Shown: positions 22,295 through 41,717, counted from the stretch's first letter. The stretch is DNA of 64,000 bases from a virus (IMGVR_UViG_3300043395_000996:115991-179990); one strand, 5' to 3'. Translations and numbers: made by a program. The notes: generated by a model from the letters alone, not told the origin.

Positions 22295-22414
22295 TTAGAA
22301 ATTTTTATATACAAATGGGTCTCTTTTTTTAAGTTCTTCTAATTTTTTCTTAATTCTTTTTTTCATTTTATACTTTTCGTATAATTCTTTTAAATATTTA
22401 AATGGATTTATCAT
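22295..22414 (-). CDS. 39-residue basic small protein
   Basis: The short frame MINPFKYLKELYEKYKMKKR...RDPFVYKNF starts with an ATG that overlaps the upstream TGA as ATGA, indicating translational coupling. It is a Lys/Glu helix flanked by aromatic ends (NPFKYLK, DPFVYK). Tiny proteins of this style (ending RDPF.YK) occur in other T4-like phages, in my recollection. It is the last gene of the carbohydrate operon. Function unknown. Confidence 0.6.
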   Translation of the reverse strand: MINPFKYLKELYEKYKMKKRIKKKLEELKKRDPFVYKNF

Positions 22415-23847
22415 AATATATCTATTTTTGGTTTACTTATTAAATATTCTCTATTTGTTAGAGCTAAAAAATGATTGTGGTCTAATGATATTTTTTTACT
22501 ACCAATTTTATACATTAATTCTTTATTATGTATTAGTCTTGGTAATAATTGTTTTACCATTTCGGAAAGCTCTTCTATTGAATAACTATTTAATCTTTTA
22601 ATTTCATTAAAAATCATAGATAATCTAATAGATGGGTCTTTTTTCGTATCATATCTTTCATCTATTATTGGATGAAATGTTTTGAACCCCATTTGTTTTA
22701 AAAATTTTAAAGAATTGTATGGGCCAATTAATACAAACGGATGACCATGTACAATTGGTTTCCAAATTTTTTCCGAAAGATATCCACTCTCTTCATAAAA
22801 TAAAGTTTCTGATACAATTGATATTAAAGATTTCATATAAACATCTTTATTTTCAAATCCATATCCCCATACATTTTCTAAATTATCATAATCTATTGTT
22901 CTTGGTGATGTTTGATTTAAATACGAAATAAAATCATTGTATTCATTTATATCCAATTTTCTTTTTAAATCATCTATTACACCATCTGTAATTAAATTAT
23001 AATCATAACTTATAAGATTAGATTCTAACATATTTTCTTTCCAAAGAAAATGCAATACTTCACTTCTATGAGGTCGTATTCTTCTATTAAAATTTAAAAA
23101 TTTAACAGATTTCATATTGAAATTTGCGATATCTTCCATATTAGAAAATGTATAGTTTGTTTTCTTCTCATCTTCTAACCAAAAATTATAATCATCTTGA
23201 TTTGATTTTTTGAAATATTCCTCTGCTTTAGAATTCAATGACCAACAAAAATGAATTAATTTTGGCATAAAATTACCAAAAATTGGTTTCATCATTTGTT
23301 CTAAATGAAAATCATTATGACAAATTATTATTTTATTTGGTGGTAGATTTAAATCCAATAAGCATTTATATAATTTTATTAATTGATTTTTTGATATATT
23401 ACCATCTATTACATAATTAATAACAAGCTTTCCACCATAATCTCTAATTTCTTCTAAAGTTTTTGAAGGAATAAATTTAGAAAATGGTATATTATGAGAT
23501 GTCTTATTCAATCCCAAAAAATTCGCAATATCACCATATGGTTCAATCAAATAATACCAATCGTAACAATTTCCACGTTCTCTTTCTCTAATAATTGCAT
23601 GAACCGAACGTGTTTCTATACCAAAATATCCAGGATTTCCTTCTTCATCATTTAATTGTACGTTAAATCGTGCATTAAATACAGACCAAAGTGCTTTATG
23701 TTTATCTTTAAAATAATTTTCTGATGTATCAAATGTATAATCTGTGTGGTATGCAAAATCCAAATATTTTGGATTTAAGCAATTTGGTACTTCATTGTAT
23801 GGAAATAAAATATCGTAACCAACTACAATTCTTTCATTATTGTTCAT
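22411..23847 (-). CDS. glycosyltransferase-like protein (paralogue of 28910-30238)
   Basis: 478 residues from the ATG at 23847; the longer TTG frame overlaps the previous gene more deeply. Two blocks are shared with the gene at 28910-30238: FLNFNRRIRPHR (about 250-261; FLSLNRTVNRTHR in the paralogue) and SEKIWKPIVHGHPFVLIGP with GFKTFHPIIDERYD (about 358-400). The SEK-x(7-10)-G/Q-P-F-x-I pattern resembles the acceptor/donor site of GT10-type fucosyltransferases and related phage glycosyltransferases. It overlaps the E1-beta-like gene by 11 bases in the order SGNH/ThDP/GT. Probably transfers a sugar; donor and acceptor unknown. Confidence 0.6.
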   Translation of the reverse strand: MNNNERIVVGYDILFPYNEVPNCLNPKYLDFAYHTDYTFDTSENYFKDKHKALWSVFNARFNVQLNDEEGNPGYFGIETRSVHAIIRERERGNCYDWYYLIEPYGDIANFLGLNKTSHNIPFSKFIPSKTLEEIRDYGGKLVINYVIDGNISKNQLIKLYKCLLDLNLPPNKIIICHNDFHLEQMMKPIFGNFMPKLIHFCWSLNSKAEEYFKKSNQDDYNFWLEDEKKTNYTFSNMEDIANFNMKSVKFLNFNRRIRPHRSEVLHFLWKENMLESNLISYDYNLITDGVIDDLKRKLDINEYNDFISYLNQTSPRTIDYDNLENVWGYGFENKDVYMKSLISIVSETLFYEESGYLSEKIWKPIVHGHPFVLIGPYNSLKFLKQMGFKTFHPIIDERYDTKKDPSIRLSMIFNEIKRLNSYSIEELSEMVKQLLPRLIHNKELMYKIGSKKISLDHNHFLALTNREYLISKPKIDIL

Positions 23848-24379
23848 AATATAATTCAGGATATTCAACTAAACAATGTATTCCACCTTCTCCAATCGCA
23901 TATTCATATGAATTATAAATATCAAATGGCGTTTTTAAATCGTGAAATTCTATATTTTTGCAAAGCGATTTAAATTCTTCGATATAACTTCCTTTATGTT
24001 GATGACCAGGGTCTAATGGTTTATCTGAACCTTTACCTAATCTAATTATAATATTTACTTTTTTATCAGTCATCATTTCGTATTTATCCAAATGATTGAT
24101 TAATTGATTTGTTGCCGAAATGATGAAATCCCAACGAGGATAGAATGTAATAACTCGCTTACCAGTCATTGCTAATCCCAAGCTCATTCCCATTTGTGTT
24201 TCTTCCATCACAGGCACTTCAATCATTTTTTCTTTTGGTACATCTCCTAATGTTGTACTCATAGGATTTCCGGCATAAACTATTTGTTGTCCAATAAAGA
24301 TTGTATCATCCATTTTTGCTAATTTTGTCATAGCATTTGTTAGTGCATCTTTGTATGGAGAATATTGTGGTGTACTCAT
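23837..24379 (-). CDS. ThDP-dependent enzyme, E1-beta-like pyrimidine-binding half
   Basis: 180 residues covering only the transketolase pyrimidine-binding domain of a dehydrogenase E1 beta subunit. The catalytic Glu is expected at 59 or 60 (VPVMEETQMGMSLGLAMTGK), followed by the ISATNQLINHLDKYEMM helix and GHQHKGSYIEEF. Cellular E1 beta chains (about 325 residues) also carry a C-terminal transketolase domain, which is absent here. The matching alpha-like half is at 30210-30839, about 6 kb upstream. It overlaps the SGNH gene by 4 bases and the GT-like gene by 11. Predicted to act with the alpha half in two-carbon or acyl transfer; substrate unknown. Confidence 0.75.
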   Translation of the reverse strand: MSTPQYSPYKDALTNAMTKLAKMDDTIFIGQQIVYAGNPMSTTLGDVPKEKMIEVPVMEETQMGMSLGLAMTGKRVITFYPRWDFIISATNQLINHLDKYEMMTDKKVNIIIRLGKGSDKPLDPGHQHKGSYIEEFKSLCKNIEFHDLKTPFDIYNSYEYAIGEGGIHCLVEYPELYYEQ

Positions 24380-25218
24380 ATTAATTTATATTTTGCATTT
24401 TCTATATTTTTAATAATGCTATCTGCTATTATTTTATGACATTCCATAGATGGATGTTCATCGTTTGGCGTATTTTCTTCAAAAAATTTTTTATTATTTA
24501 TAATTTCAAATTCAGGTTCAAATTCAATTAAATTTTGAATACATTTAAAAACATTATTATCATATTCTAAATGAATTAATCTTTTTGATAAAAATGTATC
24601 AGTTTTAATATATGGTAAATATTCATCGGTCCAACATAGCAATCTAGTATTTATGTTAAATGCTTCTTCGTAGAGAGATAATTTTTGTTTAATATTTTCA
24701 ATATTTGAAACTATGAAATCAGAATACCATTCTTCAAATGTTAAATCAATACTTTTTAAATATTTACAAAATATATTAAATGTAGCTTTATGAGATGGAT
24801 GATGAATTCCACTTTCAAATACAAATTCTTTATTATCAAAAATTAATTTATATGGATTTCTTAAAACTTGGCTTGTTTGAAATATTATGAAATTAAAATC
24901 TTTTGGTTCAAATTCTAATGGAAACAAATATTCATCTCTATCTAATTTATTTTTTAATCCTAATGTGTTATCGATAAATTCAATAGATAATGTATCTCTT
25001 CCTCCATTATATTTTTGTACTACTTCAAATGTATTAAAGTGATTTGCAACTAGTCTTGGAAAACGTTTGGATTCCATATATTTAATTTGAGCCAAACGTA
25101 AATCCATCATATTAAATTCTGAATTTTTATAAGATAGGTTACTGTTATCTAAATCAGAATAATAATATAATCCTTGTCCCCAAGTAAAAGAACAACCTGC
25201 AAATATTATACCTCTCAT
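24376..25218 (-). CDS. SGNH-like hydrolase/acyltransferase
   Basis: 280 residues from the ATG at 25218 (MRGIIFAGCSFTWGQG); the TTG extension overlaps the epimerase gene and is rejected. Block I is GCSFTWG with nucleophile Ser. The C-terminal block is NDEHPSMECH, supplying the Asp-x-x-His pair. One of four such proteins in this locus, and the one joined (ATGA) to the E1-beta-like half. Members of this superfamily remove or move O-acyl groups, often on glycans. It is cytosolic by sequence, with no signal peptide. Confidence 0.6.
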   Translation of the reverse strand: MRGIIFAGCSFTWGQGLYYYSDLDNSNLSYKNSEFNMMDLRLAQIKYMESKRFPRLVANHFNTFEVVQKYNGGRDTLSIEFIDNTLGLKNKLDRDEYLFPLEFEPKDFNFIIFQTSQVLRNPYKLIFDNKEFVFESGIHHPSHKATFNIFCKYLKSIDLTFEEWYSDFIVSNIENIKQKLSLYEEAFNINTRLLCWTDEYLPYIKTDTFLSKRLIHLEYDNNVFKCIQNLIEFEPEFEIINNKKFFEENTPNDEHPSMECHKIIADSIIKNIENAKYKLI

Positions 25219-25228
25219 AATTAAAAAA

Positions 25229-26221
25229 TTATGGTTTTGAGTTTGGGTTGTATTGATTTTTATTTTCTTTATACCACTCAATGGTTTCTTTGAGAGCTTG
25301 TTTTAAATCTCTTTTTGGAAACCAACCGGCATCGTTAATTTTCTTTGATGATAATAATCGAACCGGAATCATTGGTGCCTTATTGTTCACATATTCAATT
25401 GGATTGGTATTTCCATCTATTTCTTTAATCCAACCCAATACTTCATTCACACTAAATCCTTCACCATATGCAACGTTGAAGATATTAAATGTATCGTTGT
25501 TTTCAGCAACCCAAATAAATCCATCTGCCATATCTTCAACGTGTAATAAATCTCTTACTTCCGTACCATCACCCCAAACTGGGATTGGATTTAAACCATC
25601 TGCTACTTTACGAATATTTGCAGGAGTAACGTGGCACTTTTCAAAATCAAATTTATCATTAGGGCCGAATGCATTTGAAGGTCTAACAATCAAACACTGC
25701 ATTGGGTTATGAATTTGATGTGAGAAATAATCACATAATAATTCACCATATCGTTTCATATTACCAACTGCACCATAGATAGGAAATGTAGGTGTTGCAT
25801 GAACATTAATATCTTCAGTACAAAACTCATCCTTCATATCTGGATAGACAGTGTTAGATGAAATAAATAAGAATTTACCAACTTTATTTCTCCAACTTTG
25901 TTCCATTAAGTTTACGTTCATCTCCACATTTGGAGTAACGTGTAAAAGTGGATTTTCTTTTGTATCCAATGCGTTTGATGTGTTTGCTGCACAATGAAAT
26001 ACTACATCAACTCCTTCCGAAACTTCAGCACAAAATTTAGCATCTTGTAAGTTTCCTTTATATAATGGAATGTTTTCACATCCCTCAAAATCATTTCTCA
26101 ATCCTCTACTATGAGAAGTTGCACGTAAATTGGTGTAACCCTTCTGATGTAATAATCTTAATAAATGTGAACCAATAAATCCGCTTGCACCTGTAACTAA
26201 AATTTTGTCTGTTTTTTTCAT
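25229..26221 (-). CDS. NAD-dependent sugar epimerase/dehydratase (extended SDR)
   Basis: 330 residues. Rossmann motif TGASGFIG at 10-17, HCAANTS near 77-83 and FISSNTVYP near 120 are typical of nucleotide-sugar epimerases/dehydratases. The active-site region reads IYGAVGNMKRYGELL: Tyr150 and Lys157 are seven apart instead of the usual four, so either the loop has an insertion or the catalytic pair is altered. It lies 6 bases after the 2OG oxygenase gene and begins the SDR/SGNH/ThDP-beta/GT group. Likely makes or modifies an NDP-sugar; substrate unknown. Confidence 0.85.
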   Translation of the reverse strand: MKKTDKILVTGASGFIGSHLLRLLHQKGYTNLRATSHSRGLRNDFEGCENIPLYKGNLQDAKFCAEVSEGVDVVFHCAANTSNALDTKENPLLHVTPNVEMNVNLMEQSWRNKVGKFLFISSNTVYPDMKDEFCTEDINVHATPTFPIYGAVGNMKRYGELLCDYFSHQIHNPMQCLIVRPSNAFGPNDKFDFEKCHVTPANIRKVADGLNPIPVWGDGTEVRDLLHVEDMADGFIWVAENNDTFNIFNVAYGEGFSVNEVLGWIKEIDGNTNPIEYVNNKAPMIPVRLLSSKKINDAGWFPKRDLKQALKETIEWYKENKNQYNPNSKP

Positions 26222-26227
26222 AATTAA

Positions 26228-26821
26228 TTATTTTTTATGTATAAATGCACATATTGCATATCTTTCTGAATTTTTTACTTTTGTAACTTCGTGTTCAACT
26301 GAATTTTCTGTATAATCTATCACAACAACTCTACCATATTCTGGAACTATTTTTGTTTTATTTTTTAAAATTAAACATCCACCATTATTTTCATCATAAT
26401 TTTTATTAAGATAAATTAATATTCCGGCGATTCGTTTTGGGTCTCTCCCATCATTGTGCGGAATTATAAAACATCCATCATTAAATAATGTAACAGAATC
26501 TAAAATTTCAATATCATTTATAGAATAGAATTTTAAATAAATACTTGTTAATAAATCATATATTTCGGTTTTTTTAGGAGAATCTACATACCAAATTTGT
26601 GCTAAATTTGGATGATTTAATAATTCATTTTTTTTAATATCTAAATTAGAAAAAGAATCATATGGTAACATATGGTTATGCCCTACATTGTTATAAGAAA
26701 CTCTTAATGTATGAAAATTATTATTTGATATTATAGAATGTATATTAGATAATAATTTTAATTCATTTTCATCTGTTATATCAAACGTTATAAACCCATT
26801 TTTTATTAATTCTTCTTTCAT
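26228..26821 (-). CDS. 2OG-Fe(II) oxygenase
   Basis: 197 residues with the double-stranded beta-helix iron site: HND (His122, Asp124), distal His177 (SVEHEV) and 2-oxoglutarate-binding Arg187 (SERYAI). A GILIYLN strand and NNGGCLIL follow the first ligand pair, as in prolyl-hydroxylase-like members. It is transcribed from a host-type promoter whose -7 element ends 6 bases before its ATG, so the mRNA is probably leaderless. First gene of the SDR/SGNH/ThDP-beta/GT group; may hydroxylate the sugar, a lipid or a protein. Confidence 0.8.
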   Translation of the reverse strand: MKEELIKNGFITFDITDENELKLLSNIHSIISNNNFHTLRVSYNNVGHNHMLPYDSFSNLDIKKNELLNHPNLAQIWYVDSPKKTEIYDLLTSIYLKFYSINDIEILDSVTLFNDGCFIIPHNDGRDPKRIAGILIYLNKNYDENNGGCLILKNKTKIVPEYGRVVVIDYTENSVEHEVTKVKNSERYAICAFIHKK

Positions 26822-26827
26822 AATTTA

Positions 26828-26858: not shown

Positions 26859-26859
26859 A

Positions 26860-27933
26860 TTAAAATAGTTCCCATTTTAAAATAATATCTTTTACAAATT
26901 TGTTATACATTTTTGCTGAAACATGCCCCAATGGACATCTCCAATCTTCATAATTTTCCAACATTTCATCAAATGTTTTAAATGGTTTATTATTTTTAGA
27001 TTGTTCCATAAACAAAATATTGTGATATTCTTGATTTGTAGATGTATCATTTATATCAAAATTTTTAATAGCCCATTCTGTAACGCCACCATATTTGTGT
27101 ATGTTTTCTTCTTCATAAAACCAAAAAGAATTCCAATCAATTAAATTCCAATAATAATTCAAATATGGATTATCTTTATATCTCATACTATCATTCCAAG
27201 TATTTGGAACATATTTGTTATATAATATTTCATATAATTCATTATGCTTACTATATTCAGGTTTAAATCGTGGAAATCCACCACTTTTTATTAAATTCAA
27301 AACATATGTATCTGAAAAATTATTGGCTATATTAAACATTTTGTATTTAATATTATTTGATTTTAAATACAACTGAAGCATTACAATTGTTTCCAAAAAA
27401 CATAACATTCGTTCTTCGTATGAATGTACCCATCCTAAATTTAAAGCCGCAAATTCCTTCATTGGGTTTTTAATATGTTCCATAAAAAATCCACCTGAAA
27501 GGAAATAATATCCATTTTCACCCATTTCACTTTTTTCTTCTACAAAGTCATTTATATGGGCATAATCATCATCCCACCTTCTTCGATGTTGTGGTAATTT
27601 TAATTTAGGATTTTCTTTTATTTTTGATGGAGAAACAAAAAATGAATTTCTATAAAAAGATGACCATTGAACTATAACCGATATATCGGATGTATCAATT
27701 CCTTCTTTTTTTAATTTTTCTATTTTATAGATAATACTTCTTGCTATTGATTGATTATCATTTGTAACATTTGCAACATTTATTACATTCAAATTTGGAT
27801 TCAGTATTTTTAATTGATGAGAAAAATAATAAATTTCCTTATGGTCCTCATTTAGAATATTATTATCTGTCACATCTATATTGATTCTACCTGCTCTAGT
27901 AAAAGAGCACCCACTTGTTACCAAATGTTTCAT
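26860..27933 (-). CDS. SGNH-like protein, possibly lacking the catalytic Asp
   Basis: 357 residues. Block I is TSGCSFTRAGR. The C-terminal block reads PLGHVSAKMY, so the His is present but the residue two before it is Leu rather than the Asp of the other three copies. Middle sequence includes ISVIVQWSSFYRNSFF, compatible with the superfamily's third block. It is the longest of four SGNH-like proteins here. Its start overlaps the stop of the SDR gene (TAATG). It could be an acyl-binding or degenerate member; the assignment is weaker than for its relatives. Confidence 0.5.
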   Translation of the reverse strand: MKHLVTSGCSFTRAGRINIDVTDNNILNEDHKEIYYFSHQLKILNPNLNVINVANVTNDNQSIARSIIYKIEKLKKEGIDTSDISVIVQWSSFYRNSFFVSPSKIKENPKLKLPQHRRRWDDDYAHINDFVEEKSEMGENGYYFLSGGFFMEHIKNPMKEFAALNLGWVHSYEERMLCFLETIVMLQLYLKSNNIKYKMFNIANNFSDTYVLNLIKSGGFPRFKPEYSKHNELYEILYNKYVPNTWNDSMRYKDNPYLNYYWNLIDWNSFWFYEEENIHKYGGVTEWAIKNFDINDTSTNQEYHNILFMEQSKNNKPFKTFDEMLENYEDWRCPLGHVSAKMYNKFVKDIILKWELF

Positions 27934-28934
27934 TATAATCTACTTTTATATTCTAAAATCGATTTAGTCAAACCTTCCTTTAAAGTAGTTTGTGGTAAAA
28001 TACCATATTTTGTTTGTAATTTAGAACCTAAACATCTAATTGGGTCTCCGTTTGTTTTAGTTTCATCCCAAACAATATTTTTAGTTTTGCCTGTAATTTC
28101 TTTATAACACTCAACAATAGTTTCAATTGTTTCTTTAATAGTTACTGCTTCCGCACATCCAAAGTTGATAATATCTTTAACTTCTTTTTTAACTACATCA
28201 ATTGTAGCCTGTGCAACATCATCACCAAATACAAAATCTCTTTTTGATGAACCATTACCCCAACATACCATATCATCTCCTTCTACATTGAACAATTTCC
28301 AAATATTAGATGAAATTACAGTTGCATCTTGCGCAAAATTATCGTTGATTCCGTAAATGTTTGAAGGTCTAATTACAGTCCAATTATCCCAACCATACTG
28401 AACTTTAAGAGCATCTAATGTAAGTTCTCCCATTCTCTTTGTCCAACCGGGATGCCAATCTAAACGTGATGGAGTTGATGCCCAAGTTTCTTGCTGATTC
28501 CAAATATCTTCTTCGTTCATTACATCTGCCGGCTTATACACTCCAACCGATGATAAATAAACAAACCAATCAACTTTTGCATCAAATGATGCTTTAATCA
28601 TATTGGTATTAAACATTAACATTGGGAATAGGTAATCGGCTGGATTTTGCGATGAACGAGCCGGCGAACCTTTTACACCTGCTATGTGGAGAACAATATC
28701 CATCTTATCCAATGCAAATAATTCTTCGCAATGAGAAAGATATGTCAAATCGGTTTTAACTAAAACCAATCTATCACCACCATATTGAGATTGTAAAAAA
28801 TTTAATTTATCACCAAATTTTAAGTCTACTGCGTAAACTTTTTCGGCTCCTTCTTCTAAACATTTTTTAACTGCCGGGAATCCAACCAATCCGTTTGCTC
28901 CAGTTATAACTACTTTTTTTCCTGTAAATTGCAT
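27933..28934 (-). CDS. NAD-dependent sugar epimerase-like SDR with altered active site
   Basis: 333 residues. Rossmann motif ITGANGLVG at 10-18, IAGVKGS near 84-90 and YLSSVGVY near 126-133 place it among extended SDRs. The active-site line reads HPGWTKRMGE: Lys166 is kept, but the Tyr four residues before it is Pro162, so the usual acid/base is missing. The substrate-binding NIYG and the YGI-x-PQT C-terminal features look intact. It overlaps the GT-like gene by 25 bases and the SGNH gene by one. It may be a dehydratase/epimerase using another residue, or a structural partner. Confidence 0.8.
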   Translation of the reverse strand: MQFTGKKVVITGANGLVGFPAVKKCLEEGAEKVYAVDLKFGDKLNFLQSQYGGDRLVLVKTDLTYLSHCEELFALDKMDIVLHIAGVKGSPARSSQNPADYLFPMLMFNTNMIKASFDAKVDWFVYLSSVGVYKPADVMNEEDIWNQQETWASTPSRLDWHPGWTKRMGELTLDALKVQYGWDNWTVIRPSNIYGINDNFAQDATVISSNIWKLFNVEGDDMVCWGNGSSKRDFVFGDDVAQATIDVVKKEVKDIINFGCAEAVTIKETIETIVECYKEITGKTKNIVWDETKTNGDPIRCLGSKLQTKYGILPQTTLKEGLTKSILEYKSRL

Positions 28935-30238
28935 ATTTCTTTTATTTTTTGTAAACTGTTTGTAAATACATCATAATTTGTAAATGATAGTAAATGATTT
29001 CTATTATATATACATATATCTTTACACGATAAAATCATTTCATTTATTTCATCTATTGATAATTTTGATAATCTTAAAATTTCATCACACACTTTTTTAA
29101 ATCGTATATGGCTATTTTCTTCCTCATCATAACTCTCATCTATTATATGACCGAACGTTTTAAATCCAAGTCTACGAAGTTCAGCCAATTGACCGTTCGA
29201 TGCTATCATTATAAATGGTTGAAAATTTAAAATTGGATGAAATGTTTTTTCTGATATAAAAACCCTATTATTGGTAAATGTTGTCTCGGTGACAATATTA
29301 ATTGCTGTATCTTGATAATATTTTTTATAATAAATTACAGATGTTGGAAAGCTACTTAAAGTATTTTTATTTTTTAAAAAATTTGTATCAATTTCCATTG
29401 GTATTTTTGATAAAAAATTATCATGTATCTCACCATATGAATCAAATTTAGATTGCGGTATAGAATCTATTGCTTGAATTTCTCTTTCTCTTAAATTTAA
29501 AAATGTAAAATACCCTTTATCCCACAAATTGTGCTCTTCTAAAAATAACCCCAATGCATATCTATGTGTTCTATTTACAGTACGATTTAGAGATAAAAAA
29601 TGTTTTTGCTTTTTTATATTAAAAATATCATATCCAACTAATTCATTTTGAAATGAAAATTCATGTCCATCCAATACTTTATTTTTTAAAAAATATTTCA
29701 AAGTTTCTGCTGCATTTTTTATAAAAAAATGGTCTGATATATAATTTAATTCGGATGTGTTTCGTATATTAGCTGCTCCTGAAAATACAAAAAAATTTGT
29801 TATATCTAAATCGTATTTTCTACAAATTCTTTTTATATGCAAATTAAATGTTTCATCATATAATGGTTCGGCAAACCAATTAAATACAACTTTCAATTTT
29901 CCATCTTTTAATTTTTTAAAAGCTTTTTCGGATATATTTTCTATAAATTTATCATAATAATATGCCGGCGGATTAAATGATTCGCACAAATATATTAAAT
30001 TATCTTCATCTATATTTGTAGTAATTAAATTATATTTTTCAGCACATCCTCTATACCCATTTCCTAATAACTTTTCAGGAGACTCTCGTATTTCATAAGT
30101 TGTCCAATTATAATATTCTGAACATTTCTTTTTAAATTCTTCCTTTTCTGATGTTGATAAATTATTTGGTATAACTCTACCAAAATCATCTACATTTTCA
30201 AAATAAAATTTAAAAGGCAATCCACTTTCCAGTTCCAT
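28910..30238 (-). CDS. glycosyltransferase-like protein (paralogue of 22411-23847)
   Basis: 442 residues. Shared blocks with its paralogue: HFLSLNRTVNRTHRYAL (213-229) and VFISEKTFHPILNFQPFIMI (326-345), then GFKTFGHIIDESYD (358-371). The SEKTF-x-PI block resembles GT10-type and related phage glycosyltransferases. The N-terminal 200 residues are not clearly related to its paralogue. It follows the E1-alpha-like gene with a 29-base overlap and precedes an SDR gene, repeating the SGNH/ThDP/GT order seen at 22.4-25.2 kb. Likely a sugar transferase with unknown donor. Confidence 0.6.
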   Translation of the reverse strand: MELESGLPFKFYFENVDDFGRVIPNNLSTSEKEEFKKKCSEYYNWTTYEIRESPEKLLGNGYRGCAEKYNLITTNIDEDNLIYLCESFNPPAYYYDKFIENISEKAFKKLKDGKLKVVFNWFAEPLYDETFNLHIKRICRKYDLDITNFFVFSGAANIRNTSELNYISDHFFIKNAAETLKYFLKNKVLDGHEFSFQNELVGYDIFNIKKQKHFLSLNRTVNRTHRYALGLFLEEHNLWDKGYFTFLNLREREIQAIDSIPQSKFDSYGEIHDNFLSKIPMEIDTNFLKNKNTLSSFPTSVIYYKKYYQDTAINIVTETTFTNNRVFISEKTFHPILNFQPFIMIASNGQLAELRRLGFKTFGHIIDESYDEEENSHIRFKKVCDEILRLSKLSIDEINEMILSCKDICIYNRNHLLSFTNYDVFTNSLQKIKEICNLQEKK

Positions 30239-30839
30239 AATGTGGGAATTTTGATTTATATTTATAATAGATTACATCTTCGGGTATTTCTCTTTTTTTA
30301 TTCCAAGTTGCTTCCGTTGGAGTGTAAGTTGAAACATCGTTATCTTCAACTATAAAGTATAGGGGTAAATCAAAGTTTCTTGCATATTTGTGAACCTCAT
30401 AAAATATACCACTTTCAAAACTCATATCACCAATAAAACACCACACTTTTTCATCACTTCCTTTTTCTTTAATTCCCATTGCTACACCTAATGCAATAGA
30501 AAGAGTTCCACCTACAATAGCAGATGAATAAAACTTTTCATCTATATTACATAATGTGATTGATTTACCTTTAAGAATTTCTTCTTCAATCCAAACAGGA
30601 CAAACTTCTTTGAGTAATGCATGATAATGAGAACGCCATGTACTGAATACCCAATCCGTTGTTTTTATTCTACTAAATATTTCAATCAATTGTTCTTCAT
30701 TACCATTTGATAAATGTATTGGTCCTCTGATTTTGGCATCTTCCCAATGTTTAACAATTAATTCTTCAAATTTAATTAAATCATTTGGCGTTTGTTCTAT
30801 CGACCTTACAATCGGATATTTTTCTAAATTTTGTATCAT
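30210..30839 (-). CDS. ThDP-dependent enzyme, E1-alpha-like diphosphate-binding half
   Basis: 209 residues matching the ThDP-binding domain of dehydrogenase E1 alpha chains. Visible are VFSTWRSHYHALLKEV (64-79; compare YR-x-H in E1 alpha), FYSSAIVGGTLSIALGVAMG (103-122), and the metal/ThDP motif GDM (137-139) with Asn167 (GDMSFESGIFYEVHKYARNF...VEDN). It is much shorter than cellular E1 alpha (about 330-400). The beta-like half is at 23837-24379. It is joined to an SGNH gene by ATGA and to a GT-like gene by a 29-base overlap. Substrate unknown. Confidence 0.8.
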   Translation of the reverse strand: MIQNLEKYPIVRSIEQTPNDLIKFEELIVKHWEDAKIRGPIHLSNGNEEQLIEIFSRIKTTDWVFSTWRSHYHALLKEVCPVWIEEEILKGKSITLCNIDEKFYSSAIVGGTLSIALGVAMGIKEKGSDEKVWCFIGDMSFESGIFYEVHKYARNFDLPLYFIVEDNDVSTYTPTEATWNKKREIPEDVIYYKYKSKFPHYGTGKWIAF

Positions 30840-33945: not shown

Positions 33946-34679
33946 TATAATTTCTCTAAATCTTTACAAAATTTCATTATGTGATTGTTGTTTCCCGTCA
34001 TGTCCCAAAACTTATAAGGAGTTTCATTTTTAAAATCAAAACAACATAGTAATCCCAATTCTTCTTTATCTAAACATCTAAAACCATATTTATTTTCAGT
34101 AACAAATGAATCAATATTTTTTCTAAAATCATTTACAACCGAACCATCTAATTTTTTATCCGATACTATAAAGAAATCTGTATAACATTCTTGTGACCAA
34201 CTAAAATCTCCTTTGGTGTCAGCTGAACCTACAAAGTATGGTGCGTTTTCATAATTTCTTAATTTACCACCCAATGTTTCCGAATATACCAATTCATCAT
34301 CAATCCAAAATTCATAAGTATTTGTATCTGCATCCCAATTTAAAGTATATAAGTGCATTTCGTTCCAAAATGCTTCATCTTTGTAGAATAAGATTTTATC
34401 TGCATACTTTTCTTCATCACCTTCTACATACCAAAAATTCAACATTATCATATCCGGCTTTCTATAAACGATTCCGGTGTGTAAACCTCTTCTCATAAAG
34501 ATTCCAGCCATATCATCAGCTTTTGAATCATCTTCACTTCTTTTCCAAGTTCCACTAATTGTCCAACTCTTTTCATTCATTACATAAAACGCAGATGTAT
34601 CAATGATACCATAAGCGTTATGTGGCCACCAAGGCAAATCTGCTAATATCAATGGCTCTTTGTAAGGTACTTTATACAT
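33945..34679 (-). CDS. LamG-like (concanavalin fold) carbohydrate-binding protein
   Basis: 244 residues, one beta-sandwich domain: SWTISGTWKRSEDD, MHLYTLNWDADTNTYEFWID (a typical LamG strand pair around 128-147), FVGSADTKGDFSWSQECYTD, then a C-terminal LLCCFDFKNETPYKFWDMTG that recalls the domain's first strand. No catalytic acids of glycanase type are apparent, so lectin-like binding is more likely. It lies between the radical SAM and SDR genes; two neighbours carry the same kind of domain fused to GT7 enzymes. Not secreted by sequence. Confidence 0.65.
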   Translation of the reverse strand: MYKVPYKEPLILADLPWWPHNAYGIIDTSAFYVMNEKSWTISGTWKRSEDDSKADDMAGIFMRRGLHTGIVYRKPDMIMLNFWYVEGDEEKYADKILFYKDEAFWNEMHLYTLNWDADTNTYEFWIDDELVYSETLGGKLRNYENAPYFVGSADTKGDFSWSQECYTDFFIVSDKKLDGSVVNDFRKNIDSFVTENKYGFRCLDKEELGLLCCFDFKNETPYKFWDMTGNNNHIMKFCKDLEKL

Positions 34680-34680: not shown

Positions 34681-36081
34681 CTATAACTTTATTGTTTTTG
34701 TAAAATGGTAAAATTCTTCTAATTCAGGGAATGTTTTGCAAAAATCAGTTCCTCTTCTTTTATCATGCTCACTAAAATATTGATAGAAATTGTATCTCGC
34801 TTTAAACAATGCACTATCTTCAATTGGAGAAATAGCCCAATCATATGTTCTTTTTAGCTTTTGAATTTCTAAATCAGAAAATCCAACATATCCTTTTGAA
34901 TAATATGGAATTCCGTGATAGAATGCTAATTGAGCTTGGTCTAAAATATTTTGCTTAAACTGATGTGGTAATACCTGAACAGTTTGATGACGAGGATGTC
35001 TTAAATAAGATGTATCCATCAATACAGGCGATAACCAATATCTATCATCTCCAGCATATTCTCTTTTTAATTCATACACTCCTTTGATAAATTTATCAAA
35101 ACTAAATACCGATAACATATTATATGTTACCATAAATGTAATAGTAATTTTCGGAACTTCTCTTAAAATTCTATTTACGTTATTCCAAAATCTATTAAAC
35201 TCTAAACCATTACGAATATATTCAGCTTGCTCCCCCCAACCATCACACGATGTAAATAATACAAATCCCTTTACTTTATCTTCTTCTGTAATTCTTTTTA
35301 GCTTTTCAATTAATTTTGTAATCAATTCATCCGGTACACCTAAATTTGAATTGATAGAAAAATCTAAATTTTTATTTGGATTTGGTTCATCAATGATATA
35401 ATCTAATACTTTCCAAGTATCTTTGTGCATCAATGGTTCACCACCCGTAATTCTAAATGTATGTAAATCTCTATACAAATCAGGCCACCATTTCCAAAAT
35501 GCTTCTACATAAGGATTATGTTCTCTCAATGGAATTGGCATCTTTTGTTCAGCTGCCAAATGTTTTAAATCGTTAAAACTATCTGTCGTTGGGTATCCAC
35601 CAAATTGCTGAATCTCTTCCATCCATTTTGTAGAGAAAGTTGGTGAACAATATGAACATGCGAAGTTACAAGCATTTGAAAACGCAACTTCAACATAGCG
35701 TGGGTTAAAGTCATCTCTCCAATTTGAATTAATAATTTGGTCTGCTAAAGGCCAGCTCCAATCTTCCGATGATTTAAATACTCTATCCGAATATAAATCC
35801 GAATTATCTTCTACACCCCAACAATAATCACATTCCGTAGGTCTAGCACCATTCATCATCTCTTTTCTTTTTTGCTTTTTAAATAAAGTATTGTGAAGAG
35901 CAGATGGGTTTCGTGCAATCTCTAATTCAGAAACTTTATGAGTGTTTGGGTGGTGACAAGAGTGATTGTGACCTGTGTGTAAATGTGTTGTAACTTGTGT
36001 CCATTTTGCTAAACACATTCCCTTACCCACATTATCTAATTTTGTCTTTACTTCTTCGTAAAGTGGTTTTTTATATGCCAT
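34681..36081 (-). CDS. radical SAM protein, twitch type
   Basis: 466 residues. The radical SAM cluster motif is CNFACSYC (Cys138, Cys142, Cys145), followed by FRITGGEPLMHKDTW (SAM-binding GGE) near 213-227. N-terminal CLAKWTQVTTHLHTGHNHSC and CDYCWG (Cys84, Cys87) add extra cysteine sites, as in twitch-domain radical SAM proteins of T4-like cyanophages. It could carry out a radical modification of a sugar or peptide; substrate unknown. It lies between the two GT7-LamG genes and the stand-alone LamG gene, overlapping the former by 11 bases. Confidence 0.85.
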   Translation of the reverse strand: MAYKKPLYEEVKTKLDNVGKGMCLAKWTQVTTHLHTGHNHSCHHPNTHKVSELEIARNPSALHNTLFKKQKRKEMMNGARPTECDYCWGVEDNSDLYSDRVFKSSEDWSWPLADQIINSNWRDDFNPRYVEVAFSNACNFACSYCSPTFSTKWMEEIQQFGGYPTTDSFNDLKHLAAEQKMPIPLREHNPYVEAFWKWWPDLYRDLHTFRITGGEPLMHKDTWKVLDYIIDEPNPNKNLDFSINSNLGVPDELITKLIEKLKRITEEDKVKGFVLFTSCDGWGEQAEYIRNGLEFNRFWNNVNRILREVPKITITFMVTYNMLSVFSFDKFIKGVYELKREYAGDDRYWLSPVLMDTSYLRHPRHQTVQVLPHQFKQNILDQAQLAFYHGIPYYSKGYVGFSDLEIQKLKRTYDWAISPIEDSALFKARYNFYQYFSEHDKRRGTDFCKTFPELEEFYHFTKTIKL

Positions 36082-37489
36082 AACCTATTGTTTTAACGTT
36101 AATCATCTTATGTCTATTATAAATAGTATCAATTGATAAAAGTTCGTAATTCATACTATTAATTCCGTCATTTTTATAATTTATTTCTCCTTGCTGCATT
36201 TGTAAAACGTATCTTCTTTCGTTTCTTGCAGTTGTTTCACCTTTTGCCCATTTATCGATTCCACCTTCTTTTATCAATCCCTCCGTTTGGTGTGGTAAAC
36301 ATAAAAATTTACCATCTCTTCTATATGGTAAAATGGTATGTGGAATTTGTATTTGCTCTTTAACTATTTCTACATTTTCTAAATTTTCCAATTCATCATC
36401 AAAATCATAATCCAATATTAATCCATTTTGTGGAATTTGTTTGTGCATATTTTTGATTTCAGTTTTACCCAAACATCTATCCCACATTTTGATATCAGAA
36501 ATATATCCTTTAAAAAATACTTCGGTTGGTGATTTGGAATAACCAATTGTAAATGGCTCCATACCATATCTTTTCAATGGTTCATTAAAAAATAATGGAG
36601 ATTGTGTGCCAGTTCCTAATCTCGCATCACTTTCTCTACCATTCAAATAAAAATGTATTTTCTTTTTTTCAGAATCAACTGACATTGTAACCCAACTCCA
36701 TTGATTTTCATATCGTTTAATCCATTGGTATAAATGCCCTTTCATTCTATCCCAAAGTTGCATTGTATATGCTCTACTATTATTAAAAGATAATCCCCAA
36801 TCGTAACCAGGTTTTCTAAATATAGGATATTCTATAAATTGTCTTTCCCCATCCCCAATTAACCAAATTGGAACTTTTTCTATTTGCTGGTCTGCTTTTA
36901 CTAATACTGAAATTGTGTGAGAATTGGATAAACATTCTTTTAATTCTCTAGTTGGTCTATAAGTTGCTTTTGCATTTTCTCCATTAAAATATCCAACAAA
37001 CTTTTCTTCATTATATTCCAATTCCGTTTTTTCAACATAACCCTCCATCACACATCTCCAAAAAAGGTCATCATCTTCCATACCCCAATCCCAATAATCG
37101 TTTGAATAACCATTAGTTTTCTCCACTTGTTCTTTTGAAAAAATAACTGCTCCACCAAAGTATTCTTCATACTTTAATTGATAATCTGATTGTGAGATAC
37201 GAACTGCTATATGTTGTGGGTTATCGGTTGGAAACGAATAATCACAACTATCATCTTCCGGCACCATATCAATATCATGCCAAACGATGTAATCACATCC
37301 ATCATCGAATGCATGCTTAGCTGCAATGTTTTTCATTAAACCTCTATTAAAGAGTTTATCATCACATTGATGTGCTAAATAAATTGTATGCTCAATTCCT
37401 CTTTCTTCTAAAAATTTAGTAACGTGAGGAACAAACACTTTTAAATGTTCTTCTCTATTTCTATATGGAACGCATACTCCTAATTTCAT
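36071..37489 (-). CDS. GT7 galactosyltransferase fused to LamG-like lectin domain
   Basis: 472 residues. The N-terminal about 175 form a beta-1,4-galactosyltransferase-like GT7 domain: VPYRNREEHL (7-16), HDIDM metal motif (71-75), FGGAVIF (111-117) and WDWGMEDDD (133-141). A beta-sandwich LamG-like region spans about 188-345 (WSWVTMSVDSEKKKIHFYLN then GYISDIKMWDRCLGKTEIKN), and a C-terminal part again looks enzyme-like (PYRRDGKFLCL). Vertebrate-type GT7 enzymes are secretory, but this one has no signal. It overlaps its paralogue by one base (TAATG). Transfers a hexose onto an unknown acceptor. Confidence 0.85.
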   Translation of the reverse strand: MKLGVCVPYRNREEHLKVFVPHVTKFLEERGIEHTIYLAHQCDDKLFNRGLMKNIAAKHAFDDGCDYIVWHDIDMVPEDDSCDYSFPTDNPQHIAVRISQSDYQLKYEEYFGGAVIFSKEQVEKTNGYSNDYWDWGMEDDDLFWRCVMEGYVEKTELEYNEEKFVGYFNGENAKATYRPTRELKECLSNSHTISVLVKADQQIEKVPIWLIGDGERQFIEYPIFRKPGYDWGLSFNNSRAYTMQLWDRMKGHLYQWIKRYENQWSWVTMSVDSEKKKIHFYLNGRESDARLGTGTQSPLFFNEPLKRYGMEPFTIGYSKSPTEVFFKGYISDIKMWDRCLGKTEIKNMHKQIPQNGLILDYDFDDELENLENVEIVKEQIQIPHTILPYRRDGKFLCLPHQTEGLIKEGGIDKWAKGETTARNERRYVLQMQQGEINYKNDGINSMNYELLSIDTIYNRHKMINVKTIGYGI

Positions 37490-38901
37490 TATATACCAAC
37501 ATTTATTATTCTAATATTTTTATCTAATTTTTTAACACCATGTTCAATAAATTCTAAAGTAGATAATCCATCGTTTTTTAATAAATTATCATCATTACTA
37601 ACTTCATTTACAAATCTCAATTGATTCCATCTCGTACATTCATTTTTCCATTTATTATCAACAAATCCATTTTCTTCGTGTTTTAACGATTGAAATCTAC
37701 ATTTTTTTCTAAATGGTATTAAGTGATTTATTGATTGCGGTTCATTTGATTCGACAATTTCACAAGCTACAATTTCTGCATAATTTTTATTTCCAGATAA
37801 ATCTTTTAATCTATATTCATCTATTTTAGATGCATCATAATACATTTTTAATGATGTAGATTTTTGAATAGTTTCATCTAATTCAGTTCCTAATTTGTAA
37901 ATTTTATCATCAGATAAAACATCATCAAAATATGCGAATGATTTAAAATATCCTTTAAAAAAATTTGGAATTTTAATTCTTTCGGGATTTCCCACTCCAA
38001 TATAACAATTATTAACTATTTTATAATCTATTAAAAATTTTCGTATTTGAGCCGTTTCCCCTATATAAATTCCGTCTTGATAAACTTTTATTACTTTATC
38101 ATTTGCATCATATACAATTGTTATGTTTGTTAAATAATTTGGCTTTATTTCTGAATTTACAAAATGAGAATTCAGTTTATAATCAAATGCGCAAAAATTA
38201 TATCTATGAAAAGATGTATATGATATAGCAAAATCATATCCGGGTATACTGAATATAGTAAACTCATCGGATTCTTTTTTATGGTCTAATTTTAAATCAT
38301 CTGGGCAAAATGTAACGGATATTGTAAAATGATAATTGAAATCTATTACATTTTTTATTTTTATATGAGAGTCGATTCCATTAAGTTTTAATAATTTTCT
38401 ATTACCTATATTTTTAAAAATTTTAGAATCCAAAGATACATTATTCTTTTTGCATCTTAACAATAAATCATCATCTTCATACCCCCATCCCCAATACTTA
38501 TTTGAATAACCATCTATATTTTCAAAAATTTCGGTTGGAAACATAGTTACGCCACCAAAATATGTATCAAATATTTCTCTGTTTTTTTCTCCTTGAGAAT
38601 AATAAAAATTAGTAGCTAAATGTAATGGAATATGTGAATATGTGTAATCCACACTTAATGGAATCATATCCACATCGTGAAATACTACATAATCACATTT
38701 TAATTTTTTTGCATAAGTAAATCCAATATTAAGAAGCATACCACGATTGAATAATTTAGCATCATCTTGTTCAACTATTATTAATTCATAATCGATACGA
38801 CCATTATTGAAATAATTAACCAATGCTTGTTTAAATACTTCTAAATGTTCGTATCGATTTCTATATGGTACAATAATCCCTAATTTGTGATTACTACTCA
38901 T
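37489..38901 (-). CDS. GT7 galactosyltransferase fused to LamG-like domain, paralogue
   Basis: 470 residues, same layout as its neighbour: VPYRNRYEHL (11-20), HDVDM (75-79), FGGVTMFP (115-122), WGWGYEDDD (137-145), then a LamG-like domain (TNITIVYDANDKVIKVYQDG, then GYFKSFAYFDDVL) and a final PFRKKCRFQSL block. The DxD and WGWGxEDDD motifs are intact, so it should be active. It is AT-richer and more diverged than the other copy, consistent with an old duplication. It overlaps the upstream small gene by 8 bases. Confidence 0.85.
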   Translation of the reverse strand: MSSNHKLGIIVPYRNRYEHLEVFKQALVNYFNNGRIDYELIIVEQDDAKLFNRGMLLNIGFTYAKKLKCDYVVFHDVDMIPLSVDYTYSHIPLHLATNFYYSQGEKNREIFDTYFGGVTMFPTEIFENIDGYSNKYWGWGYEDDDLLLRCKKNNVSLDSKIFKNIGNRKLLKLNGIDSHIKIKNVIDFNYHFTISVTFCPDDLKLDHKKESDEFTIFSIPGYDFAISYTSFHRYNFCAFDYKLNSHFVNSEIKPNYLTNITIVYDANDKVIKVYQDGIYIGETAQIRKFLIDYKIVNNCYIGVGNPERIKIPNFFKGYFKSFAYFDDVLSDDKIYKLGTELDETIQKSTSLKMYYDASKIDEYRLKDLSGNKNYAEIVACEIVESNEPQSINHLIPFRKKCRFQSLKHEENGFVDNKWKNECTRWNQLRFVNEVSNDDNLLKNDGLSTLEFIEHGVKKLDKNIRIINVGI

Positions 38902-39106: not shown

Positions 39107-39127
39107 AATTATTCGTTTAAATTTTTA

Positions 39128-39158: not shown

Positions 39159-39159
39159 A

Positions 39160-39996
39160 CTATATTTTAACTATTTCATTTATTAATGAATTCCATTGAC
39201 AATACGAACCAACACCCGATTTTTCTATTTTAAATTCGGGATTGGTAATGTCAATTTCAAAATTATTTCTCCTAATAGCTTGATACATTTTTAAATATTC
39301 TTTTGAAAATGCGTAATCCTTTCTAATATCAGCAACTGCTTTTATTCTTTCTACACAAGTACTATCCCATTTGAAATGATGTACCTGAACACTATACTCA
39401 TCTATTGGTGCAATTAATTTATTATCCGATTGTGGGCCCCAAAGAACTTCTCCATTTACTTTTGCATAATGCTGTCCATTGGTAATTTCAACATATCCTT
39501 TCATTACGCAAATTTTATTTGGACATGCTCCACTTAATGGGTATCTAAAGAATCCTGCTAATGGAAATTGTTCAAATATATTTTTATAAGGTTGTATTTC
39601 AGGAAAACTCCCACCTTCCCCAATTCTATCTACGAATCCACCTCTTACAATATCCCATCCATTTGTTTCACAATCTTCTATTAAAAATGGTAATGGCATT
39701 GGATACATATGAAATTCATCATCGTCTGCTATAACCCACCAATCATCGGGGTATTGTGATTTTATTTCATTATATAATTCAGTTACAACTTCCCAATTAA
39801 ACTTTTCTCTTTTTTCAACTTTTACAACTTTTGCTGATGGGAAATTTTCTAATATTTTTCCAACTTCTGCTAATATGTTAGTACCTTCCCATTCATATAC
39901 GACAACAAACATTTCATCAACTATGTGTCGATAATGATTCAACATATGCCAAAGTGTATTTGTGCGAGAACCCGTAACAGTTAATAATCTAGTCAT
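39160..39996 (-). CDS. glycosyltransferase, GT-A type (GT2/GT92-like)
   Basis: 278 residues. It starts LLTVTGSRTNTLWHMLNHYR, has a WWVIADDDEFHMYPMPLPFL metal-binding block (ADDDEF 90-95) and a conserved HHFKWDSTCVERIKAV region near 206-222. The pattern of a loose N-terminal nucleotide-binding half plus an ADDDEF motif fits phage GT-A enzymes of the GT2/GT92 type. It ends just before the host-type promoter and lies one base after the methyltransferase gene. Sugar specificity unknown. Confidence 0.75.
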   Translation of the reverse strand: MTRLLTVTGSRTNTLWHMLNHYRHIVDEMFVVVYEWEGTNILAEVGKILENFPSAKVVKVEKREKFNWEVVTELYNEIKSQYPDDWWVIADDDEFHMYPMPLPFLIEDCETNGWDIVRGGFVDRIGEGGSFPEIQPYKNIFEQFPLAGFFRYPLSGACPNKICVMKGYVEITNGQHYAKVNGEVLWGPQSDNKLIAPIDEYSVQVHHFKWDSTCVERIKAVADIRKDYAFSKEYLKMYQAIRRNNFEIDITNPEFKIEKSGVGSYCQWNSLINEIVKI

Positions 39997-40758
39997 TTAT
40001 TTTTTTGTTAGTATGCATAACCCAGTAGATGTAGGTAATTTGCCACTAAAGATACGAAAATTTTTTAAATTAACCAAATTCCATTCATCATTTTTTTCTA
40101 ATTCTTTTACAAATTTTGCAGGCCCATCAAAAGGTGCAAAATCTTTTTTAGCACTTTCGGTTACAACAAATGTATTATGATATTGTTGGTCTGTATCGTG
40201 GATTGTGATAATTCCATTTTCAGCCATTATTTGTGAATACAATTCAAAATCCTTTTTAACACCTTCGTATGAATGGTCGCCATCTATGTGTAAATAGTCA
40301 ATTTTAATATCTTGTCTTACGAAGTAATCATAAAATGCTTTTTCAGAAGTTTCTAAAATTATTTGCGGAGAGAAGTGTTGCCTTAAAAAAGAATTTTCAG
40401 AAGTCCAATCGGTAAATCCGCCAACACCATTTGCCGCATCTACTACTATTGTAGTTCCAACATCACCCCATTCATTTTGTGGATTCCCTTCGAATATTTT
40501 TTGGTGCCACAAATCTACACGAGATTGAGTCATAAGTCGTGGAATAAATCCACCACCGCTACCAATACATACGCATACTTTTGCTCTGATGAATTGTATT
40601 AAAGAATATACCATTAACCCATCACCCAAATGTAAATCGGTTGCACCATGTGTCCATCGATAATTTATTGGTGTATGAACTATATTACCATCTTCATCGA
40701 TGATATGATTATTGGTTAAATAATCTTTAACTATATTTAAATTGATAAGACTTTGCAT
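39997..40758 (-). CDS. class I SAM methyltransferase (Methyltransf_24-like)
   Basis: 253 residues from the ATG at 40758 (MQSLINLNIVKDY); a TTG start five codons earlier is possible. Motif I is VCVCIGSGGGF (61-71). The family-defining segment is IDYLHIDGDHSYEGVKKDF (153-171), followed by GIITIHDTD. Relatives are O-methyltransferases often found in glycan clusters. It overlaps the upstream glycosyltransferase gene by 22 bases. May methylate the sugar made by this locus. Confidence 0.8.
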   Translation of the reverse strand: MQSLINLNIVKDYLTNNHIIDEDGNIVHTPINYRWTHGATDLHLGDGLMVYSLIQFIRAKVCVCIGSGGGFIPRLMTQSRVDLWHQKIFEGNPQNEWGDVGTTIVVDAANGVGGFTDWTSENSFLRQHFSPQIILETSEKAFYDYFVRQDIKIDYLHIDGDHSYEGVKKDFELYSQIMAENGIITIHDTDQQYHNTFVVTESAKKDFAPFDGPAKFVKELEKNDEWNLVNLKNFRIFSGKLPTSTGLCILTKK

Positions 40759-41717
40759 ATTTGAATAACCCAATTTTGTTTATTTGTATATTTTTCTAAT
40801 CCTTTTTTTAATCTGTCAAATTGTTTTTTATTTTTTTCAAATCCATCTTCTAATATTCTTAAATATTGATAATTGAATTGTTTTTTATTCATTGCTCTAT
40901 ATCGATATTTAATATCTTTCATCCAATCTGAATGTATTATAGGTAATTTACCATTATCAATTGCATCAAAGATTGCATAACCAAATGGTTCTTTTGTATA
41001 ACATCCGTGAAATATTTTGAAATCTTTTTCAAAGAATTTATAATGAAAACGATAATCAAATTCTATGAATGTATGTACATCTGCGTTTATCTTACTACCC
41101 TCCAACATTCGTTTGTAATCGTATTTGTTTGAGAATATAAAAGCAGGTATTCCATCCAAATAATGTGCGTTTTTTCTCGTTTCACATCTTGCGGCATATC
41201 CTACTTTATTACTTACTACATCCGTATATGGTTTGTTGTGTTTCCATTCATAATAATTTGTAATAGTAATTGTATTCGGAAAATAGGTATGAATAGTATC
41301 TTTTTCATAACCTATCCAAACTATATTTTTAGAATTGTCCAAAATATCCTTTTGCCAATGCCAATCTAATCTTGTCATTAGATTTTCATACTCATCATTT
41401 AATCCCAACATATCAGGTATGAAAGCATGAACAAATGTTGTGTGAGTTTTATGTAGATACTTTTTGATTATAGGATTTGGTTTATAAGAATGATGTAAGA
41501 ATACAATCTTATCACACTCATTTAATATCCTATCTATTTCATCATCGTTTTGGTAAGTGTATATTGCACCTTTTTCTGGCAACAAAGGTCTACCATCAAC
41601 TACAATTTTGTAATCTTCCGTAACTAATGGTAAAACGTTCTCTACAAAGTTGTTACACCATATATCCGAACCCCCTACTACATTTTTTCCGTAACCAGTT
41701 GTTATGAATACTATCAT
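40737..41717 (-). CDS. glycosyltransferase, GT-B fold (GT4-like)
   Basis: 326 residues. N-terminal VFITTGYGKNVVGGSDIW (glycine-rich donor loop), middle VGYAARCETRKNAHYLDGIP near 172-191, and the GT4-type donor-binding block FHGCYTKEPFGYAIFDAIDN then GKLPI (236-260; Glu243 and Asp251 occupy the E-x7-E positions). First gene of the carbohydrate locus in reading order, 12 bases after the adhesin gene ends. The locus is thus transcribed as a continuation of the tail-fibre genes. Confidence 0.75.
   Translation of the reverse strand: MIVFITTGYGKNVVGGSDIWCNNFVENVLPLVTEDYKIVVDGRPLLPEKGAIYTYQNDDEIDRILNECDKIVFLHHSYKPNPIIKKYLHKTHTTFVHAFIPDMLGLNDEYENLMTRLDWHWQKDILDNSKNIVWIGYEKDTIHTYFPNTITITNYYEWKHNKPYTDVVSNKVGYAARCETRKNAHYLDGIPAFIFSNKYDYKRMLEGSKINADVHTFIEFDYRFHYKFFEKDFKIFHGCYTKEPFGYAIFDAIDNGKLPIIHSDWMKDIKYRYRAMNKKQFNYQYLRILEDGFEKNKKQFDRLKKGLEKYTNKQNWVIQICKVLSI

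Follow-up and report, generated by a model that had tools for sequence, protein, structure and literature searches.

A window of 64,000 nucleotides, positions 115991–179990 of a 179,990-base IMG/VR virus record (a T4-like phage of about 180 kb), contains a block of sugar genes at 22411–41717 that is centered on an enzyme dependent on thiamine diphosphate (ThDP). We consider it fairly probable that the block specifies a pathway in which a guanosine diphosphate (GDP)-heptose is oxidized, epimerized, branched by the ThDP enzyme and then transferred. On a broader proposal our confidence and our doubt are evenly balanced, namely that an undescribed route to a C-branched heptose (a nonose) is common to phages and to several lineages of marine bacteria. 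On this route a minimal two-subunit E1-type enzyme devoid of the C-terminal domain would ligate a two-carbon unit to GDP-4-keto-heptose, and paired short-chain dehydrogenases/reductases (SDRs) lacking the canonical YxxxK would finish the product. The resulting sugar would be one not described before in phages. Phages of this T4-like group have so far been seen in metagenomes only. The block comprises 20 open reading frames (ORFs), all on the minus strand and tightly packed with short overlaps; coordinates below are those of the window unless otherwise stated.

Comparison of two enzymes of the block with proteins of known structure provides the basis for the heptose assignment. SDR3 (323 aa, 32974–33945) matches PDB entries 6vo6 and 6vo8 by phmmer with E=9.5e-106 over 308 aa, while the next best match stands at 6e-25, and its active-site motif YGQTK is intact. 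The PDB title of 6vo6 is "putative sugar-nucleotide epimerase/dehydratase"; we take this entry to be Campylobacter Cj1427, the GDP-heptose C4-dehydrogenase. By this strong homology SDR3 is the predicted orthologue of Cj1427 (the MlghA type), whose reaction is taken from PMC10680097. The 178-aa protein encoded at 32436–32972 had been called an RmlC-like epimerase in the initial annotation. The family holds (dTDP_sugar_isom, 6e-33), but the best PDB matches are the GDP-4-keto-heptose epimerases 8db5, 7an4 and 7m14 (E~1e-41) and not true RmlC (4e-23), which makes it a predicted C3/C5 epimerase of GDP-4-keto-heptose. Alignment to 8db5 places H72, K79, Y138 and D177 at the positions of the catalytic H67, K74, Y134 and D173 of DdahB/MlghB, with N126 and H128 occupying those of N121 and H123 (PMC7949155); S61 and F136 are found where DdahB/MlghB have I56 and Y132. 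A plain deoxythymidine diphosphate (dTDP)-rhamnose pathway was ruled out, as the epimerase is closer to the heptose enzymes and no RmlA-type gene was found in the record.

The ThDP enzyme is encoded by two genes that lie six genes apart. The E1-alpha-like subunit (209 aa, 30210–30839; E1_dh, 5e-13) has the PP domain only, and the E1-beta-like subunit (180 aa, 23837–24379; Transket_pyr, 1.3e-7, with E1-beta matches in the PDB) has the Pyr domain only. The profile match of E1-alpha to the E1-alpha of pyruvate dehydrogenase (PDH) reaches 2e-19, with split transketolase much weaker. E1-alpha presents the GDM...EDN motif for Mg/ThDP (D138/N167), which is conserved in phage and bacterial homologues, and E1-beta presents the catalytic Glu59 within PV[MF]E[ED], a Glu kept in all homologues aligned. 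E1-beta was present in 30 of 30 large E1-alpha-bearing records that were searched. Together the subunits would form a minimal two-part E1-type enzyme with intact catalytic motifs. No Transketolase_C domain was found above cut-off in the record, and no Biotin_lipoyl match that would reveal a lipoyl-bearing E2 partner. Because E1-beta lacks Transketolase_C and the record lacks a lipoyl domain, a role in a dehydrogenase complex is unlikely; the absent lipoyl partner rules out the classical PDH/E1 role. To call the enzyme "split", as the initial annotation did, misleads. Alpha and beta are ordinary separate subunits; their genes adjoin or overlap in bacteria and in the minimal phage forms (L078, L079 and L231), and a single enzyme broken in two was discarded on these grounds. 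In the cyanophages S-SM2 and P-TIM68 the two are fused into one chain.

The genomic linkage of the pair points to its substrate. One IMG/VR scan with E1-alpha gave 153 relatives; 80 were kept for comparison, and the order SDR3, RmlC, E1-alpha, SDR2, SDR1, E1-beta recurs among them. The core (SDR3, the epimerase, E1-alpha and E1-beta, usually with SDR1 and SDR2) is seen in dozens of metagenomic phage contigs, and the minimal form consists of a keto-maker, the epimerase and E1-alpha/beta only. SDR3 and RmlC occur without a dehydratase in 47 of the 56 non-redundant loci having both E1 genes. SDR3 and a GDP-mannose-4,6-dehydratase-like SDR substitute for one another: SDR3 only, both or neither were counted in 70, 1 and 9 members of the E1-alpha set; SDR3 only, dehydratase only or neither in 8, 3 and 4 at the cassette site and in 3, 11 and 27 cellular genomes, these sets being overlapping and some absences reflecting contig ends or more distant families. 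As either keto-maker stands ahead of the same epimerase and ThDP pair, and the minimal versions hold no other core gene, the pair most likely acts on a 4-keto sugar.

That this sugar is a heptose is argued by bacterial loci. Homologues of E1-alpha/beta are present in Pelagibacter, gammaproteobacterial and Chloroflexi contigs alongside homologues of SDR2, RmlC and SDR1, and the same loci hold genes that NCBIfam matches best to HddA, HddC, GmhA and gmd, all below the curated cut-offs. Since the bacterial ThDP homologues thus share operons with genes like GmhA, HddA and HddC, GDP-D-glycero-D-manno-heptose is the most likely substrate, and the intermediate would be its 4-keto form. The phage genome itself encodes an HddA-like heptose-7-phosphate kinase outside the block (G000:C1:40930–41976; top match NF049969, E=1.8e-102, 343 bits, short of the curated cut-off of 600). 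All 4 of the same-clade records of at least 198 kb have HddA, which was also found in 31 viral contigs. The record gave no match to SIS_2 (the GmhA type), with the caveat that it may be incomplete, and neither NTP_transferase nor NTP_transf_3, the sugar-1-phosphate nucleotidylyltransferase families, was detected in the block or in the 180-kb record; if the record is complete, the host must supply these other steps. The initial annotation had likewise noted no sugar-1-phosphate nucleotidylyltransferase and had proposed remodeling of a host nucleotide sugar. The first statement is right for the NTP_transferase/NTP_transf_3 type, while a CTP_transf_like protein and a cytidylyltransferase-like domain in a 1766-aa protein do exist. 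The second is right in that the block does not make the full sugar nucleotide; the phage would nonetheless contribute a heptose-7-phosphate kinase and not only take a finished sugar.

The CTP_transf_like protein is small, is encoded near HddA (L134:18560–19024; G000:C1:37560–38024) and is conserved in many relatives. Its top equivalog is rfaE domain II (55 bits, below cut-off), and it is a candidate heptose-1-phosphate nucleotidylyltransferase. A full-length GroEL (820 bits, above cut-off; L135:468–2093, G000:C1:38468–40093), conserved in several relatives, is encoded next to HddA and to a gene for an Fe-S biosynthesis protein. Three further leads were set aside: an sm2_NT211-like match in the same genome is a cupin and not a nucleotidyltransferase, SIS_2 matches in three relatives are borderline (~28 bits) and were not used as evidence, and a cyanophage "phosphoheptose isomerase" (L086:22998–23309) is weakly HAD-like and not GmhA-like by Pfam, for which reason GmhA labels in cyanophages were kept out of the evidence.

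The remaining two core proteins, SDR1 (25229–26221; PDB matches at E~1e-26) and SDR2 (27933–28934; PDB GDP-fucose synthases at E~1e-16), resemble GDP-fucose synthases and related SDRs but lack YxxxK, and are uncertain candidates for the C4-reductase (Cj1428/MlghC) of the C. jejuni pathway. In SDR1 the Tyr is seven residues before the Lys (Y-x-x-VGWMKR); SDR2 has no catalytic Tyr and presents the motif PGW-x-KR-x-x-E. Both unusual motifs are conserved and are common to the phage and bacterial homologues. MlghC of C. jejuni is also Tyr-less, which is a precedent for SDR1 and SDR2, so the missing Tyr does not by itself indicate inactivity. The two proteins travel together: among the 56 loci both are present in 45, neither in nine and a single one in two, that is, they are together in 45 of the 47 loci holding either.

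The following pathway can be proposed. The phage HddA kinase would help to feed the GDP-heptose pathway of the host. SDR3 would then oxidize C4, and the RmlC-like enzyme would epimerize C3 and/or C5 of the 4-keto sugar, both steps being assigned by strong homology. The E1-type enzyme would decarboxylate a 2-oxo acid (most likely pyruvate) or split a ketose, and the two-carbon unit would be added to the 4-ketone to give a tertiary-alcohol branch. This branching by the phage pair is plausible in view of the gene linkage, the catalytic residues and the alphaKADH2 precedent discussed below. Where present, SDR1 and SDR2 may jointly reduce or rearrange the product, and the variable glycosyltransferases, SGNH, 2-oxoglutarate (2OG) oxygenase and methyltransferase proteins would transfer and decorate the sugar for display on the host surface (changing a receptor, or excluding other phages) or on the tail fibers. 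Several points weigh against this proposal: the phage epimerase has Ser in place of the heptose-pocket I56 of DdahB; no GmhA- or HddC-type gene turned up in the phage record, which implies dependence on the host; the lack of the canonical Tyr leaves the reaction of SDR1 and SDR2 uncertain; the donor and the position of the branch carbon cannot be read from sequence; and the fused homologues of cyanophages have a Zn-alcohol dehydrogenase, a CTP-transferase and a PfkB kinase as neighbors but none of the 4-keto enzymes, so that another role is possible there.

Glycosylation of the virion (the tail fibers) in place of the host surface is a tentative alternative for the destination of the product, and one that is compatible with the branched-heptose pathway. 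The cassette abuts fiber genes, a GT7-LamG gene stays by the fiber in loci that lack the heptose core (L181, L214), and a paralogue of the GT4-like protein of the block is found beside another fiber gene. The persistence of GT7-LamG at that position points to the fibers as the likely target of this particular enzyme. The bacterial counterparts, in contrast, are in surface-polysaccharide-type loci, and the pelagimyophage literature favors a change of the host O-chain for such regions (PMC7029224); bacterial context and this literature together point to host surface glycans.

An unlikely explanation makes the ThDP pair a specialized transketolase-like enzyme, which would boost sedoheptulose-7-phosphate or another ketose phosphate for heptose synthesis; the final sugar would then be an unbranched epimerized heptose, as in C. 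jejuni. The GmhA/HddA/HddC-like genes of the bacterial operons would fit such a role, as would the heptose-type kinase and nucleotidyltransferase genes found with the fused cyanophage relatives. Nevertheless, the sequence is closest to the E1 of PDH and other 2-oxo-acid enzymes, with the split transketolases much weaker, and Transketolase_C is missing above cut-off. Moreover, the phage E1 genes travel with the 4-keto maker and the epimerase, whereas HddA is unlinked to them and is missing from several large module-bearing records. Less probable still is that GDP-mannose or some other hexose nucleotide is what the core acts on, the likeness of the core to heptose enzymes being no more than familial. 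MlghB and DdahB are weakly active on mannose substrates (PMC7949155), SDR1 and SDR2 resemble GDP-fucose synthases, and the Ser at the position of DdahB Ile56 is the residue of RmlC. The orthology of SDR3 to the heptose C4-dehydrogenase, N126 and H128 at heptose-epimerase positions, HddA in the genome and the heptose operons of bacteria all speak against a hexose. That the ORFs are functionless passengers, as a hypervariable site might suggest, is very improbable given core ratios of nonsynonymous to synonymous change (pN/pS) of 0.10–0.20, conserved catalytic residues and a gene order that recurs in dozens of contigs.

Comparison with known systems separates what is familiar in the branched-heptose pathway from what is new. 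The GDP-heptose modification of the C. jejuni capsule by Mlgh (Cj1427-Cj1430-Cj1428) and Ddah (DdahA-B-C) is alike in starting with either a C4-dehydrogenase or a 4,6-dehydratase, and in the heptose C3/C5 epimerase with a GDP-fucose-synthase-like SDR. The exchange of SDR3 for a 4,6-dehydratase parallels that of MlghA for DdahA; the literature consulted reports no ThDP enzyme for the C. jejuni pathway, while the phage cassette has one. The phage also differs in having two divergent SDRs and in leaving part of GDP-heptose synthesis to the host. For the branching step the closest precedent is alphaKADH2, two-subunit E1-like enzymes of antibiotic pathways that use pyruvate to branch keto-sugars (PMC12247030). 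In aldgamycin, kosinostatin and kibdelomycin (KbDH-alpha/beta) the E1-like alpha and beta are likewise beside enzymes that make keto nucleotide sugars; these pathways act on deoxyhexoses, whereas the phage subunits are of 209 and 180 aa, without the Transketolase_C of a standard E1-beta. YerE (yersiniose), which uses ThDP to ligate carbon onto a 4-keto nucleotide sugar destined for a surface glycan, works as the phage pair is proposed to do, but it is a single-chain member of the decarboxylase family and the phage pair is of the E1 type, a different ThDP family.

Among phages, the host-recognition cassettes of pelagimyophages and cyanomyophages, with lipopolysaccharide genes, are alike in a hypervariable region by the tail fibers that holds glycosyltransferases and sugar enzymes, and no ThDP-heptose core is mentioned in the available part of that work (PMC7029224). 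The "transketolase central region" protein of S-SM2 and P-TIM68 is a homologous ThDP enzyme (43–44% over the E1-alpha part), and SynMITS9220M01 and Cr30 carry phage-borne heptose genes (GmhA/HddA annotations). In contrast to the phage cassette, the cyanophage ThDP protein is fused in one chain, and no Cj1427-type SDR3 or heptose epimerase was found beside the fused gene. Cyanophage S-SM2, Prochlorococcus and members of candidate phyla carry such fused homologues (the metagenome-assembled genome L117 is labeled Bifidobacterium), which adjoin a Zn-alcohol dehydrogenase and often a carbohydrate kinase and/or a CTP-transferase (L117, L126, L127, L121–L124, L086); this is a distinct though related pathway. 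Our literature search, with subscription journals mostly outside its scope, found no phage or bacterial ThDP-heptose pathway. The cassette is of a known kind, surface-sugar genes by tail fibers, with a well-supported GDP-heptose substrate and a likely ThDP branching step as its new part. If this is correct, phages carry most of a heptose-remodeling pathway so far characterized in the Campylobacter capsule, and the added carbon-branching step yields an unreported class of sugar, which should also occur on Pelagibacter and further marine bacteria, a group with poorly known surface glycans. The cassette would then offer an E1-type ThDP carboligase that is small by nature, together with a pair of divergent SDRs, and a way to test how receptor glycans are rewritten by phages.

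The core behaves as an exchangeable unit at a conserved site beside tail-fiber genes, as in the host-recognition and sugar cassettes of T4-like phages. Gain or loss of the block as a whole, raised as a check in the initial annotation, is borne out by relatives compared at the site beside the 1766-aa gene: the core is present in 25 of 34 scorable contigs and absent from nine, and is inverted in five. The major capsid protein is nearest to those of Microcystis and Flavobacterium phages (53–56%); two cultured phages related by this protein, Flavobacterium phage immuto (53%) and Microcystis phage Mel-JY01 (56%), share the backbone order, and the block is absent from the stretches of both that were examined. 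A megablast search of the block against phages gave no match. In the E1-alpha tree the phage proteins cluster apart from the Pelagibacter/gammaproteobacterial/Chloroflexi group, with several deeper forks weakly supported; a few contigs labeled cellular fall inside the phage group and look like phage, and the Pelagibacterales bin label of one locus (L089) was not taken as evidence for a host. By simple pairwise counts, pN/pS is ~0.10–0.20 in the core genes and ~0.25–0.6 in two large glycosyltransferase-like proteins and SGNH-like protein 2. This contrast suggests that the sugar donor stays the same while its placement varies.

These two large proteins are encoded at 28910–30238 (442 aa) and 22411–23868 (485 aa). 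The AlphaFold2 model of the first (predicted local-distance difference test score, pLDDT, 91.6) gives Foldseek matches to VldE, SdgB and TarM at E ~1e-4, consistent with a predicted GT-B fold; the second is its paralogue (family A2 alignment, 21% identity, invariant residues in common). Further glycosyltransferases are two GT7 proteins with LamG, both by Pfam (36071–37489, and a weaker one at 37489–38901), a GT2-like protein (39160–39996; PF13704, 0.0018, below cut-off) and a GT4-like protein (40737–41717) recognized by motif only, without a Pfam match, whose fiber-linked paralogue shows 32% identity. The initial annotation's count of five or six glycosyltransferases agrees with the six counted here, glycosyltransferase-like proteins included. 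Four SGNH-like proteins carry GxSFT...H motifs: protein 1 (24376–25281; GCSFT, homologous family), protein 2 (26860–27933; weak DUF6071, and a model with weak GDSL-esterase fold matches, best E 7.5e-3), protein 3 (30836–31606; GCSFT/HLS-GH, weak DUF6071) and protein 4 (31603–32436; GDSFT/FHLS-GH). The block is completed by a 2OG-Fe(II) oxygenase (26228–26821; PF13640, 1.5e-11), a twitch-domain radical SAM protein (34681–36081; NF033640, 354 bits, above cut-off), a Methyltransf_24 methyltransferase (39997–40773; PF13578, 1e-10) and a weak LamG/ConA-like protein (33945–34679). The LamG proteins listed initially thus hold for the two GT7 fusions, while the last is recognized by eye and by homologues in relatives, with no Pfam match. 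Otherwise profile searches closely reproduced the initial gene list, with three SDRs, dTDP_sugar_isom, oxygenase, radical SAM, methyltransferase, glycosyltransferases and ThDP domains. A second sugar locus of the same genome (G000:C1, ~46–58 kb, L135) encodes an SDR, GT2, several GT4/GT1, SGNH and radical SAM/SPASM proteins.

The block is limited on one side by a fiber protein (41730–43277) and a long tail fiber with an S74 chaperone (43277–46876, minus strand), and on the other by the 1766-aa gene, terminase, portal and major capsid protein. Its initial placement between tail-fiber and head genes is correct, with 20 same-strand ORFs between them, and co-transcription with the neighbors is plausible as judged by strand and spacing. 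The 1766-aa cytidylyltransferase-fusion protein (16949–22249, minus strand; PF01467, phrog_395), which marks one side of the cassette site in the site comparison, has the cytidylyltransferase-like domain at its N-terminus, and by eye a metallopeptidase motif of the HELVH type as well as, at the C-terminus, a ligase-like EKTDG stretch; its length and make-up differ among relatives. Directly ahead of its gene lies a conserved basic 39-aa ORF (22295–22414; MINPFKYLKELYEKYKMKKRIKKKLEELKKRDPFVYKNF), which is kept in dozens of relatives, including some without the gene for the 485-aa glycosyltransferase-like protein.

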